Part shown: positions 13,698 to 63,251 of the stretch, one piece after another
How positions within the stretch are numbered: the stretch's first letter is position 1
Layout of the letters: each line of letters starts with the position of its first letter
NCBI RefSeq assembly: GCF_029392315.1
Contig: NZ_CP113939.1
Location: 682,001 to 746,000, forward strand
From: Bifidobacterium sp. ESL0690
Lineage (GTDB): Bacteria; Actinomycetota; Actinomycetes; Actinomycetales; Bifidobacteriaceae
DNA length: 64,000 bases
Direction of reading: 5' to 3'
Notes under the pieces: model-generated
The model's database searches: none
Told to the model about the DNA's origin: nothing
What the model saw: the letters and a program-made list of their open reading frames with translations, nothing else
Program-made: the position numbers and the translations under genes

Positions 13698-14761
13698 AAA
13701 TGCGTGACGAATCCAATAGGGAGAACGAAATGACGGATCTGACTTCTGATAACGACTTGGTTGAAACCCAGACGATGCCGGCTCAGAACCTTAGTGCTGA
13801 TACCGACGATATCCACGATAACGAAGTTATGCCTGCCCAGAACGGCAATGACGATACTACGGAAACTACACTGGCTCAGCATAGTGCTGCCGATGCCGAC
13901 GATACCGAGGCTATGCCGACTTCGAACGGTAACGACGATACTACTGAGACCATGCCAGTTTGGGAGAGTAGCGCCGATGCCACTGAAACTGAGGCTATAC
14001 CGGCTAACGATGATACTGCTGAGACTATGTCAGTTCAGGATTTCGATACCGATGCTGTTGACTCTGAGGCCGCAGCAGTTCAAAGTAGCGCCGACGATAC
14101 TACTGAGACCTTGCCGGTGCAGGACGCTGATACCGTTACGACTGGCACTGAAGACGAAAAACTTGCACAAAATGATAATGCTGCAAGCGATTCGTCTGAG
14201 GCGGGGGAAGGTGGAAGTGAAGCTGGATCCCGGCCTGGAACTGAAACCGCAGTAGGCACCGAAACCGAGACCGGGATTGAAATGGTGACTGAAACTGAAG
14301 CTGGGGAGGAGACCAAAACCGGAACTAAAATCTGGGATGAAGACGAAACCGGCACTGCTTTCTCCGATGCGTCAAGCCAGATCGGATATGTGCCACCGCA
14401 AGCCGCCAGATATGTACCGCCATCGAATTTCGCCAGCGGGCCAGCTCCTTCCGGTGCCTACGTGCGCGTGCCGCGTGACATGCCGCAGCAGATGCCAAAG
14501 CCGCAGCCGCCGACTGGGCCGAGCAAAGCAACCATCATATTCAGCCTGTTGCCGCTGTGTCTTGGCGCATTGATGTTGATTGTCGGTTCGGCGTTCCCGA
14601 TGGTGTTCATGCCGGTATCGGGAGGTGCCGATGTACGCTCGCTGATTGCTTTGTTCGTCGTTGTGCTGGGGGCATTGCTGATTGGACTGGCTGTGCTGCT
14701 TGGCCTGGCATCGCTGATTCACAAGGGTACTGTGAAATGGAAGGCCAGAAGACGGCAATAA
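13694..14761 (+). CDS. Acidic repeat protein with a C-terminal membrane anchor
   Basis: A 355-residue protein of unknown function. The first two thirds are low-complexity and strongly acidic, with degenerate repeats around DDTTETMPVQ and later TETETG/TETEAG. A Pro-rich segment (PQQMPKPQPPTGPSK) leads into two membrane helices (IIFSLLPLCLGALMLIVG and LIALFVVVLGALLIGLAVLL) and a basic end KWKARRRQ. ATG 13694 overlaps the preceding stop (ATGA), so it is translationally coupled to the PspC protein and probably belongs to the same stress unit. Tandem acidic repeats are prone to length change. Confidence 0.75.
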   Translation: MKMRDESNRENEMTDLTSDNDLVETQTMPAQNLSADTDDIHDNEVMPAQNGNDDTTETTLAQHSAADADDTEAMPTSNGNDDTTETMPVWESSADATETEAIPANDDTAETMSVQDFDTDAVDSEAAAVQSSADDTTETLPVQDADTVTTGTEDEKLAQNDNAASDSSEAGEGGSEAGSRPGTETAVGTETETGIEMVTETEAGEETKTGTKIWDEDETGTAFSDASSQIGYVPPQAARYVPPSNFASGPAPSGAYVRVPRDMPQQMPKPQPPTGPSKATIIFSLLPLCLGALMLIVGSAFPMVFMPVSGGADVRSLIALFVVVLGALLIGLAVLLGLASLIHKGTVKWKARRRQ

Positions 14762-24373: not shown

Positions 24374-24381
24374 CTAGTTGG

Positions 24382-24455
<74 letters not shown>

Positions 24456-24594: not shown

Positions 24595-24784
24595 TGCTGT
24601 AAAACAGCATCTCACTGGGGATTGCGTGCAGTTTGTATGCACTAAAGTGTGATTGCTTGTGTTGGTGCTGGTAAACGGCATTTAGCAGGGTGGTATATGC
24701 GGTTTACATGCAGCAAAACTTGAATTATATGTGTTGATGCTGGTAAACGGCATTTCAATCGTAATAAGATGACGTTTACCAGCA
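24595..24784. repeat. Array of six 15-bp near-palindromes upstream of lysS
   Basis: Related sites begin at 24595 (TGCTGTAAAACAGCA), 24627 (TGCAGTTTGTATGCA), 24666 and 24738 (both TGCTGGTAAACGGCA), 24698 (TGCGGTTTACATGCA) and 24770 (TGACGTTTACCAGCA). The steps are 32, 39, 32, 40 and 32 bases. Alternate sites are approximate reverse complements, so the array is three tandem units of about 71 bp. The last pair contains a perfect 13-bp inverted repeat (24737-24749 and 24773-24785). It ends 50 bases before lysS. It could be a cooperative repressor site or a set of hairpins in the lysS leader; nothing else occupies 24456-24833. Confidence 0.65.
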
Positions 24785-24833
24785 TGGGGATGTTTGAATC
24801 GTGTGTATCGGCTGCTCGGTACACTCGGGAATT

Positions 24834-26498
24834 ATGAGCGAAACGAATGAAACCGGCGAAAACCGGAACGAAGAAGAGGCACAAGCCCCGGTAATGTCCA
24901 CTGTCGAGCGTGCGGAGCTGCGCCTCAAGCAGGACGAGGCCATCGCGGAAAACATCAACGAAGGCAAGTCCTTCGACGAGTCCATCGACCCGACCAACAA
25001 GGAATTCGGTCCTGAAGGTCAGCCCGAACAGGTGCAGATGCGCGTGGCCAAGCGCGCCCAGATGCTCAAAGACGGCGTCGCGCCCTACCCGGTTGTGGTT
25101 GAGGTCAGCGACACGATTCCGCAGGTCCGTGCCAAGTACGATGGCAAGTTGGCAGCGGGTGACGAGACCCAGGATGTGGTCTCCATCGCCGGTCGTGTGC
25201 TCTTCCTGCGCAACGGCGGCGGTCTCTGCTTCGTGCAGCTTGCGGCGGGCGACGGCACCAAGATCCAGGGCATGATTTCCAAGAAGGAGATCGGCGCGGA
25301 TTCGCTGAAGGCGTTCAAACAGTTTGTCGATTTGGGCGATCATCTTTATCTCAAGGGCCGCGTGATTGCGTCCAAGACCGGCGAGCTTTCCGTTTTCGCC
25401 AGCGAGTGGAAAATTGCCGCCAAGGCGTTGCAACCGCTTCCGGCGTTGCACAAGGAGCTTACGGAGGATACCCGTACGCGCAAGCCGTATATCGCCATGA
25501 TCGCCGACGAGAAGATTCGCGACATGGTCCGCAAACGTTCCAAGGTCGTCACCTCTTTGCGTAATACGTTTGCCAAGGACGACTTCCTTGAGGTCGAGAC
25601 CCCGATGCTGCAGACGGTGCACGGGGGAGCGGCCGCCCGTCCGTTCATCACCCATATGAATGCCTTCGACATCGATCTTTACCTGCGTATCGCGCCGGAA
25701 CTCTTCCTCAAGCGTTGCCTGGTCGGCGGCATCGAGCGCGTTTTCGAGATCAACCGTGACTTCCGCAACGAGGGCGTCGACGGCACGCACGCACCCGAAT
25801 TCACTATGCTTGAAGCCTATCAGGCCTATGGCAACTATGACACCATCGCGGCCCTCACGAAGAAGCTCATCCAGCAGTCCGCCATCGATGCGTTCGGCTC
25901 CACCAAGGTCACCCTGCTCGACGGCAGCGAATACGACTTCGGCGGTGAATGGAAAGAGATTTCCATGTACGAGTCGCTTTCCGAGTCGCTGGGCGAGGAG
26001 ATCACGCCGGAAACGTCCGTGGAACACCTGGGCGCTATCGCCGACAAGCTTGGTGTCGAGCGCGACGAGGTCGAGAACCATGGCAAGTTGGTCGAGCATC
26101 TTTGGGAGCACTTCTATGAAGCCGGCCTGGGTGCCGAGGTCCCGACCTTCGTGCGCGACTTCCCGGTCGAGACGAGCCCGCTGGTCAAGGCCCACCGCTC
26201 CAAGAAGGGCGTCGTGGAGAAGTGGGACCTCTATGTGCGCGGCTTCGAGCTGGCGACCGGCTATTCCGAGCTCAACGATCCGGTGGTCCAGCGTCAGCGT
26301 TTGGTCGACCAGGCCAAGGACGCGCTCGCGGGCGACGTCGAGGCGATGGACATCGATGAGGACTTCCTCGAGGCGCTTGGCGTCGGTATGCCGCCGGCTG
26401 GTGGCATGGGCATGGGCATCGACCGCCTGCTGATCGCCCTCACGGGTGCCACGATCCGCGAGACCATCACCTTCCCGCTGGTCAAGCCGCTGAACTAA
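24834..26498 (+). CDS. lysS: Lysyl-tRNA synthetase (class II)
   Basis: A 554-residue class II synthetase that charges tRNA-Lys in the cytoplasm. An acidic N-terminal tail of about 35 residues precedes the OB-fold anticodon-binding domain (VVSIAGRVLFLRNGGGLCFVQL). The catalytic domain shows motif 1 (FLEVETPMLQTVHGGAAARPF), motif 2 (RVFEINRDFRNEGVDGTHAPEFTMLE) and motif 3 (GMGMGIDRLLIALT). ATG 24834 (MSETNE) is the conserved start; an in-frame ATG 24801 overlaps the end of the palindrome region. It is a single gene ended by the hairpin at 26590-26655. Confidence 0.97.
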   Translation: MSETNETGENRNEEEAQAPVMSTVERAELRLKQDEAIAENINEGKSFDESIDPTNKEFGPEGQPEQVQMRVAKRAQMLKDGVAPYPVVVEVSDTIPQVRAKYDGKLAAGDETQDVVSIAGRVLFLRNGGGLCFVQLAAGDGTKIQGMISKKEIGADSLKAFKQFVDLGDHLYLKGRVIASKTGELSVFASEWKIAAKALQPLPALHKELTEDTRTRKPYIAMIADEKIRDMVRKRSKVVTSLRNTFAKDDFLEVETPMLQTVHGGAAARPFITHMNAFDIDLYLRIAPELFLKRCLVGGIERVFEINRDFRNEGVDGTHAPEFTMLEAYQAYGNYDTIAALTKKLIQQSAIDAFGSTKVTLLDGSEYDFGGEWKEISMYESLSESLGEEITPETSVEHLGAIADKLGVERDEVENHGKLVEHLWEHFYEAGLGAEVPTFVRDFPVETSPLVKAHRSKKGVVEKWDLYVRGFELATGYSELNDPVVQRQRLVDQAKDALAGDVEAMDIDEDFLEALGVGMPPAGGMGMGIDRLLIALTGATIRETITFPLVKPLN

Positions 26499-61089: not shown

Positions 61090-63251
61090 GCTATCCTCAG
61101 AATCCCCGTAACCCCATGGGACCGATGGGTAACCCGAACGGACCGAACAACAATAACAACAATCCTTTCAACCCCTTCAACCAGGGCAACAATCCCAATA
61201 ACCGCAACAACCGGAATAATGGCAACAACGGCAACAACCGTCGTAACAACAACAGCAACAAGGGCGACCGGAACCCCAATGACAAGCGGCCGTTCTGGCA
61301 GTCGCCCATACTTTGGATCGTCGTTCTGGTCCTGCTGGTCTTCGCCGGTTTCGAACTGTTCAATTCCAACGGCACGCAGACCATTGATACCCAGGATGGC
61401 ATGACGCTGGTTGAAAAAAACGGAGCCAGCCGTATCCAGATCATCGACAACAAACAGATGGTCAAGCTCAAGCTTCACAAGAACTTCAAAAAAGTCGACC
61501 CGAATACGAAGAACAATCACGATTACGGTCGCGACGTCCAGTTCTACTACACCCAAGCCGAAGGGCCCGAGGTGTTGAGCGCCGTCAAGAAGGCCAAACC
61601 GAAAGACGGCTGGACTGCGGACATGCAGTCCGATTCCATGGTGGCCTACCTGCTTTCCACGCTGCTGCCGTTCGCCATTCTTCTGCTGCTGTGCTGGTGG
61701 CTTTTCCGCAGCATGAGCGGCGGTATGAACGGCATGCTCGGCATGGGCGGCAAGAAGGACAACGGCAAGCTTCTGGATGGGCAGACCCCGACCACCAAGT
61801 TCTCCGACGTGGCCGGCGAGGAAGCCGCCGTAGCCGAAGTCGAGGAGATCAAGGACTTCTTGAAGGATCCTTCCAAGTACAAGGCACTTGGCGCTCGTAT
61901 CCCGCGTGGTGTGCTGCTTTATGGCCCTCCTGGAACCGGCAAGACGCTGCTTGCACGAGCCGTGGCGGGCGAGGCTGGCGTGCCGTTCTATTCCATGGCG
62001 GGTTCCGACTTCGTCGAGATGTTCGTCGGTCTCGGTGCCTCGCGTGTGCGTGACCTCTTCGACGAGGCCAAGAAGAATGCGCCGGCCATCATCTTCATCG
62101 ATGAGATCGATGCCGTCGGCCGCAAGCGTGGCTCCGGCATGAGCGGCGGGCATGATGAACGCGAGCAGACCCTGAACCAGCTGCTCGTTGAGATGGATGG
62201 TTTCGACAACGACACCAACCTCATTATCATCGCCGCCACCAACCGTCCGGACGTTTTGGACGAGGCGCTGTTACGTCCCGGCCGTTTCGACCGTCAGGTG
62301 GCCGTTGAGGCCCCGGATCTGGAAGGCCGCGAGGAGATCCTCAAGGTCCACGCCAAGGGCAAGCCTTTCGTACCCAACGTCGATTTGCATACCGTAGCTG
62401 TGCGTACGCCCGGCTTTACCGGTGCCGATCTGGCCAACGTGTTGAACGAGGCTGCGTTGCTTTGCGCCCGTGTGGGAGCCCAGCTGATCGACAACCGCGC
62501 CATCGACGAGGCCATTGACCGCGTCCAGTCCGGACCGAAGCGCCAGTCGCGCGGTATGGCTTTGGACGAGATGCGCAACACCGCCTATCACGAGGGTGGT
62601 CATGCGCTGGTCGCCGCCGCGCTGCACCACACCGACCCGGTGACCAAGGTGACGATTCTGCCGCGAGGCCGCGCCTTGGGCTACACCGCCGTCATGCCCA
62701 CGCAGGATCGCTACTCCCAGTCCCGCAACGAGCTTTTGGACCAGATGGCTTACGCCATGGGCGGGCGCACCGCCGAAGAGGTCGTTTTCCACGATCCGAC
62801 CACCGGTGCCTCCAACGATATCGAGAAGGCGACGCAGATCGCCCGCAAGATGGTCATTGAATTCGGTCTGTCTTCCAAGCTTGGTGCCGTTAAATGGGGC
62901 GATTCCGAGCACGGCGAAGATTCCGCCAACAACTTCATCCATGATTACTCCGAGCGTACGCAGGATGTCATCGATGAAGAGGTGCACGGCATGATCGAGA
63001 CCGCGCACACCGAAGCGTGGCAGATCATCACCGAGAACCGCGACGTGCTCGATGAGCTTGTACGTCAGCTCTTGGTCAAGGAAACCCTGAACGAGAAGGA
63101 GCTGAAGGTCATCTTCGCCAACCTCAAGATGGCTCCGGAACGCAAGCTTTGGCTCTCCGATTCGGCTCGCCCGGATTCCGAGATTCCGCCGGTGCCGATT
63201 CCCGAATCGCTGAAGCGTTCGGTCGGCATGAAGCCGGAAGATTCCGAGTGA
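61086..63251 (+). CDS. ftsH: ATP-dependent zinc metalloprotease FtsH
   Basis: A 721-residue membrane AAA protease degrading misfolded membrane and regulatory proteins. An Asn-rich cytosolic N-terminus of about 70 residues ([19 protein letters not shown] and following) comes before two membrane helices and the short extracellular domain. The ATPase has [32 protein letters not shown] and the second region of homology [19 protein letters not shown]. The zinc site is HEGGH near residue 502, an accepted HExxH form. CAAGGAGAAG precedes ATG 61086. Confidence 0.96.

Follow-up and report, generated by a model that had tools for sequence, protein, structure and literature searches.

The repetitive extragenic palindromic (REP) sequences with their REP-associated tyrosine transposases (RAYTs) and the AbiEi antitoxins are among the described bacterial systems closest to the array of near-palindromic sites found upstream of lysS in the window analyzed here, a 64,000-nucleotide stretch of the genome of Bifidobacterium sp. 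ESL0690 (G000; 2.64 Mb, single contig). REP/bacterial interspersed mosaic element (BIME)–RAYT systems comprise dispersed extragenic repeat arrays in alternating orientation, and the family to which the lysS array belongs, termed F1, is organized likewise, with 22/22 of its arrays being intergenic. As in REPIN–RAYT systems, a solitary gene accompanies its own repeat family, several families share a genome, and some families lack a gene. However, G000 has no RAYT, and the protein implicated here is AbiEi-like and Vsr-like; the half-sites measure ~24 bp, show no overall covariation between arms, and are helically phased. The arrays are set apart from REP–RAYT because the tests for RAYT and for hairpins fail.

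AbiEi and Rv2827c, antitoxins of the type IV AbiE group, act as monomers on 23-bp inverted repeats according to PMC7319586, in which Rv2827c is also described to bind tandem pairs and AbiEi to bend DNA. The two-domain fold of these antitoxins recurs in the proteins discussed below, and the inverted ~24-bp geometry of the sites agrees with the same source, the binding itself being putative. In contrast to AbiEi, the protein is joined to a nuclease-like domain, and its putative sites flank the gene as arrays on either side and occur in many copies elsewhere. The predicted nuclease half shares its fold with Vsr/DUF559-like endonucleases but differs from these in being joined to an AbiEi-like half.

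The array before lysS is best read, with a probability of about 0.7, as one copy of a dispersed family (F1) of DNA-binding-site arrays of the AbiEi-Vsr kind and not as a regulator of lysS. In the proposed mechanism, each ~24-bp half-site would be read by one protein monomer, two inverted half-sites would constitute a unit, and units about 6, 7, 8, or 9 helical turns apart would align the bound monomers along a single DNA face. This Bifidobacterium clade has several array families of the same build. For the families other than F1, the protein is identified by position as a solitary fusion of an AbiEi-antitoxin-like DNA-binding part and a Vsr/DUF559-like nuclease part. The arrays, as a REP/REPIN-like sequence population, would be spread or maintained through this protein. 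Their function may be selfish REP-like spread or chromosome organization.

The first-pass annotation of the window had described six sites within 24595–24784 at spacings of 32, 39, 32, 40, and 32 bp, and both starts and spacings are exact. The sites resolve into three 47-bp inverted pairs (1–2, 3–4, and 5–6) with unit starts at 24595, 24666, and 24738, listed here with their position weight matrix (PWM) scores:

24595..24641, F1 unit 1, half-sites 24595-24609 (+) and 24627-24641 (−), PWM 21.8 and 12.1 bits
24666..24712, F1 unit 2, half-sites 24666-24680 (+, TGCTGGTAAACGGCA) and 24698-24712 (−), PWM 34.6 and 22.9 bits
24738..24784, F1 unit 3, half-sites 24738-24752 (+) and 24770-24784 (−), PWM 33.2 and 23.0 bits

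Unit 1, its half-sites also 32 bp apart, is the most degenerate of the three, with 8 mismatches when its two arms are counted together. As had been noted, all 15 bases are shared between the copies at 24666 and 24738, and the 13-bp perfect inverted repeat reported for the last pair is nested in a 17-nt repeat that is 94% complementary.

The genome-wide motif search that had been proposed as a check reveals a clear enrichment: TGCNGGTAAACNGCA (≤2 mismatches, both strands) has 102 + 98 matches in G000 versus 31 + 34 for the reversed pattern as control. When the two 15-mers are required to lie 32 bp apart (47-bp unit, ≤3 mismatches), 58 units are found in G000 versus 0 in the control. A relaxed unit search of 25 G000 loci and 13 loci of the related genome G029 yields 67 + 34 units, i.e., 202 half-sites, the information of which spans ~24 bp (TTRnTGCTGGnAAACnG(CA or AC)TnTnA, with the CA/AC positions being two coupled variants); F1 arrays carry TGCTGGTAAACGG. 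An F1 unit thus comprises two inverted ~24-bp half-sites, 32 bp apart. The same spacing of 32 separates most +/− neighbors when single half-sites are scanned without a spacing requirement, and one decayed unit in G002 has 33 instead.

Unit-to-unit distances are within 2 bp of 61, 72, 82, or 92 in 41/42 cases in G000 (the exception is 64) and in 15/18 cases in G029 (the exceptions are 96, 143, and 170); the G029 array listing contains single matches that fall on arrays of a related motif, F2. Distances below 130 follow a 10.4-bp period with an R of 0.90 (n = 58), or 0.87 for the 45 distinct values per locus, while the 99.9th percentiles of uniform draws are 0.41 and 0.47, respectively. On account of this shared period, the half-sites all face roughly the same side of the helix, which bears out the earlier suggestion of similar DNA faces and is consistent with putative protein-binding sites. 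F1 therefore forms dispersed, helically phased arrays of inverted ~24-bp half-sites, the build that characterizes the proposed array class.

The 58 units of G000 make up 22 arrays of 1–6 units each, a count that leaves out three weak single matches within genes (L068:5051, L072:5957, and L087:524). Fifteen arrays lie between tandem, five between convergent, and two between divergent gene pairs; gene orientation was taken from a codon-usage caller because several open reading frames without Pfam matches adjoining arrays resembled, by eye, antisense shadow frames. The neighbors identified by Pfam are unrelated and include trpA, rho, HMG-CoA reductase and synthase, murG-murC, araA, an ammonium transporter and ftsY, tgt, and ABC transporters, among others, so that F1 does not resemble a lysS regulon. 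The family is confined to a few species. Viral contigs contain no exact match to the F1 pattern, and the two matches outside Bifidobacterium are each single, with no further strong F1 half-sites around them in the fetched stretches. About 470 kb of G000 (C1, about 1.11–1.58 Mb), roughly opposite a DnaA-like frame recognized by eye at the contig start, harbor no F1 unit; this hints only weakly that F1 is depleted around the terminus, and by a rough estimate a gap of such size is unsurprising among 22 arrays.

Where arrays are orthologous, the F1 core is retained. When eight G000 arrays are aligned with their G029 orthologues, core positions differ in 51/464 cases (11%), degenerate positions in 145/372 (39%), the centre in 90/169 (53%), and the mostly coding flanks in 1346/7304 (18%); about one fifth of unit positions are gapped, since unit numbers differ. 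A metagenome-assembled genome (MAG) differs at one F1 locus in 5/44 core and 18/37 degenerate positions, and G004, also at one locus, in 1/20 and 7/16. At two loci of G002, the core (9/100) is no better kept than the centre (3/35), so constraint on F1 may be relaxed in that genome.

The protein of the AbiEi-Vsr kind is found beside the sister families. In G002, two F2 arrays enclose a gene for a 387-aa protein without Pfam match at E ≤ 1. Fold comparisons predict an AbiEi-like DNA-binding half, in which the two AbiEi domains are recovered in the gene-linked proteins of the sister families, and a Vsr-like nuclease half whose acidic and lysine positions E, D, E, D, and K are invariant. The C-terminal half, which matches Vsr in fold, also resembles DUF559. 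A 12-protein profile detects homologues in 48/59 genomes, with 0–11 matches per Bifidobacterium genome and two in G000. A repeat search around other homologues reveals different motifs, likewise in inverted arrays. At least five copies of one 11-mer occur in the 800-bp flanks of 27/33 genes, with copies on both sides in 25 of those 27, versus 0/39 control positions taken from the window; 20 shuffles per flank give at most 5 copies, and the five-copy cut-off was chosen with that result known. Five of 14 further loci pass the same flank test on both sides, including one gene of Collinsella aerofaciens, with 12 copies, and one from a genome of another family in the order, with 6. L131 in this second set and L187 in the first are one and the same gene, and the match L138 was left out because it is a poly-A stretch that probably stems from masked N being rendered as A. 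At the Collinsella aerofaciens locus (L190, NZ_OY725717.1), the 12 copies in total are of CTCAATCTGTA and lie on both sides of the gene in mostly alternating orientation.

Gene-linked arrays have typical spacings of 33/28, 25/36, 23/28, 21/30, and 37/37 and recur with a period of about 10.3 bp (R 0.66 over 54 distinct values from 25 loci; reached in 0/2000 uniform draws). The surroundings of the gene are syntenic in 8/8 gene pairs compared. Where an AbiE system would have the partner toxin AbiEii (DUF1814) next door, one neighbor at the locus L111 encodes a Hydrolase_4 protein. Phages yielded no member of the protein family, and plasmid records hold two distant matches, in Collinsella and Tsukamurella. 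A cognate gene stands beside its own arrays for F2 (G002 and G029), F3 (G000 and G029), F4 (G000), and others, and it is from this arrangement that we infer binding of the arrays by the AbiEi-Vsr protein.

The two gene-linked motifs examined genome-wide are dispersed, as F1 is. The motif beside a G025 gene is present in 137 units in G025, 5 in G029, and 0 in the other 57 genomes (control 0). F3 (AAAGTGCAnnTT), linked to the AbiEi-Vsr gene at G000:C1:120335, has 28/21 matches in G000, 29/24 in G029, 6/8 in G015, 5/8 in G004, and 2/2 in G002, with 0–2 per strand in the remaining genomes and 0–2 in the control. A 64%-identical orthologue of the 120335 gene in G029 is flanked by F3. No F3 gene was found in G015 and G004, where the motif is present, and some species therefore hold array families without their gene. 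One stretch of G000 has F3 and F1 arrays close to each other (F3 at L073:2325-2609; C1 about 2438424-2438708), and another F3 array lies at L077:4267-4399. In G029, an F3-like unit is repeated in tandem as near-identical 51-bp copies (C1:402501-402788 and 2005783-2006222), suggesting that it has recently expanded by tandem duplication.

Motif and protein diverge together, judging from comparison of their sequences. Across 25 genes, protein identity correlates with motif similarity (Mantel r 0.38, 0/5000 permutations), a value that still includes species relatedness. The L178/L171 gene pair, 66% identical, has GAGATAATC in common. The F2 genes of G002 and G029 are 82% identical and both flanked by F2-type arrays; those of the G029 gene are of the AAACAACG type, as at the dispersed G029 arrays, and those of the G002 gene have G and T mixed at position 3. 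At this position G predominates in G000 and G002 but T in G029 and G015, and the base differs in all four half-sites between the orthologous lysS arrays of G002 and G029 and between the arrays of G000 and G029 at a U32 peptidase gene.

F1 is assigned to the AbiEi-Vsr class on the basis of identical architecture, moderate kinship of its half-site with that of F2, and interchange of F1 and F2 at orthologous loci. At lysS, G000 carries F1, and G002, G015, and G029 carry F2; at infB-truB, F2 in G000 is matched by F1 in G002. The closest gene-linked motif to the F1 half-site is that of a G008 gene. F1 would thus be read, now or formerly, by a protein of the AbiEi-Vsr type. Weighing against this assignment, a search of G000, G029, G002, and the MAG, with one genome per species, found no F1-linked AbiEi-Vsr gene, and the direct sign of membership, a cognate gene beside its own motif, is lacking for F1. 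For want of such a gene, F1 is either an orphan set or held by another protein. A further F2 array lies between two genes at L062:4854-4965 (G000:C1 about 368553-368664), and the orthologous place in G015 (L113) also has one.

The missing gene also suits an alternative, unlikely but the strongest of those considered, in which a host nucleoid or chromosome-organization protein unrelated to AbiEi-Vsr binds F1 cooperatively on one face of the DNA, with the AbiEi-Vsr arrays being a parallel case. Conservation of the F1 core between G000 and G029 in the absence of such a gene fits this alternative too, and the F1-free 470 kb lend it a little weight. However, F1 is present in only a few species, which is not expected of a house-keeping nucleoid protein; F1 and F2 replace each other at orthologous loci; and the geometry of F1 is the same as that of the gene-linked arrays.

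That the array controls lysS, as the first-pass annotation had proposed, is not borne out. The immediate surroundings of the array are as follows:

24379..24455, − strand, tRNA-Pro(CGG), divergent neighbor of the array
24803..24825, + strand, block GTGTATCGGCTGCTCGGTACACT, adjoining lysS and promoter-like by inference
24834..26498, + strand, lysS (lysine–tRNA ligase), neighbor of the array and putative target at most

The end of the array about 50 bp before the lysS start and the near-dyad character of its 15-mers would suit the operator of a conventional transcription factor for lysS or for a regulon containing it, yet this is improbable given 22 arrays beside unrelated genes, five of them between convergent genes. 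Moreover, neither an F1 nor an F2 array was found within 400 bp ahead of lysS in G004 or in five outgroup genomes (G025, G008, G034, G028, and G035). In the comparison of lysS upstream regions that had been called for, the type of array is not kept. The block adjoining the lysS start, which ends in TACACT or TAAACT, recurs in somewhat altered form in each of the ten sequences, array or not.

Hairpins, either of the RAYT-type REP/BIME kind or formed by other RNA or single-stranded DNA, would account for the alternating orientation and for the intergenic placement, mostly behind the 3′ end of a gene, but are very improbable. Arm likeness within units is 1372 versus 1363 ± 16 after shuffling across units (p 0.29). 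Positions 9, 10, and 12 are exceptions that covary (z 5–6) and speak for pairing, whereas positions 3 and 11 of the 15-mer, which vary freely and would pair, show no covariation (z −1). The Y1 transposase PF01797 has 0 matches in G000, with the control positive in 5/14 genomes, and phasing with the DNA helix argues against hairpins as well. Lrp/AsnC operators consist of 15-bp near-dyads spaced three or four turns of the helix apart. Although F1 resembles such boxes in site length and spacing, this is the least credible alternative, for PF01037 has 0 matches in G000, G002, G004, and G015 (control positive in 11/14 genomes), which leaves room only for a diverged homologue, and F1 is not tied to one gene.

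An RNA switch, also suggested earlier, is disfavored by the lack of overall covariation between the arms and by the position of the array, which is upstream of the promoter-like block adjoining lysS. Rfam at the gathering threshold returns only five tRNAs in the window, in agreement with the earlier statement that no known riboswitch or T-box is present.

More broadly, it is rather likely that Bifidobacteria and at least one Collinsella harbor an undescribed class of repeat and protein, in which each AbiEi-Vsr protein has private, fast-diverging phased sites that flank its gene, colonize intergenic DNA (in one case with more than 100 units per genome), and coevolve with it, and in which sets without a gene, the lysS array included, persist as orphans. 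Open-access literature yielded no description of the arrays or of the pairing of gene and array, and a term search of PMC3733652 and PMC2267715 returned no mention of bifidobacteria or actinobacteria. If this is correct, REP–RAYT would not be the sole bacterial case in which a solitary gene coexists with a dispersed population of repeats belonging to it, and some two dozen natural protein–DNA specificity pairs would be at hand within the sample. Repeat spread, orphan repeats, and protein–DNA coevolution would become directly testable in harmless gut bacteria, and the otherwise puzzling array upstream of lysS would be accounted for.

A sigma-70 scan does not call the block at 24803..24825 as a promoter. 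It does report a single promoter-like site at 24500-24472 (−), on the tRNA-Pro side, against a chance expectation of 0.7. The promoter-like TACACT stops 8 bases short of the lysS ATG (24820-24834), so the lysS leader may be very short. Elsewhere in the window, short tandem repeats, with periods of 18 and 9 bp, occur at 14671-14719 and 61186-61240, respectively.
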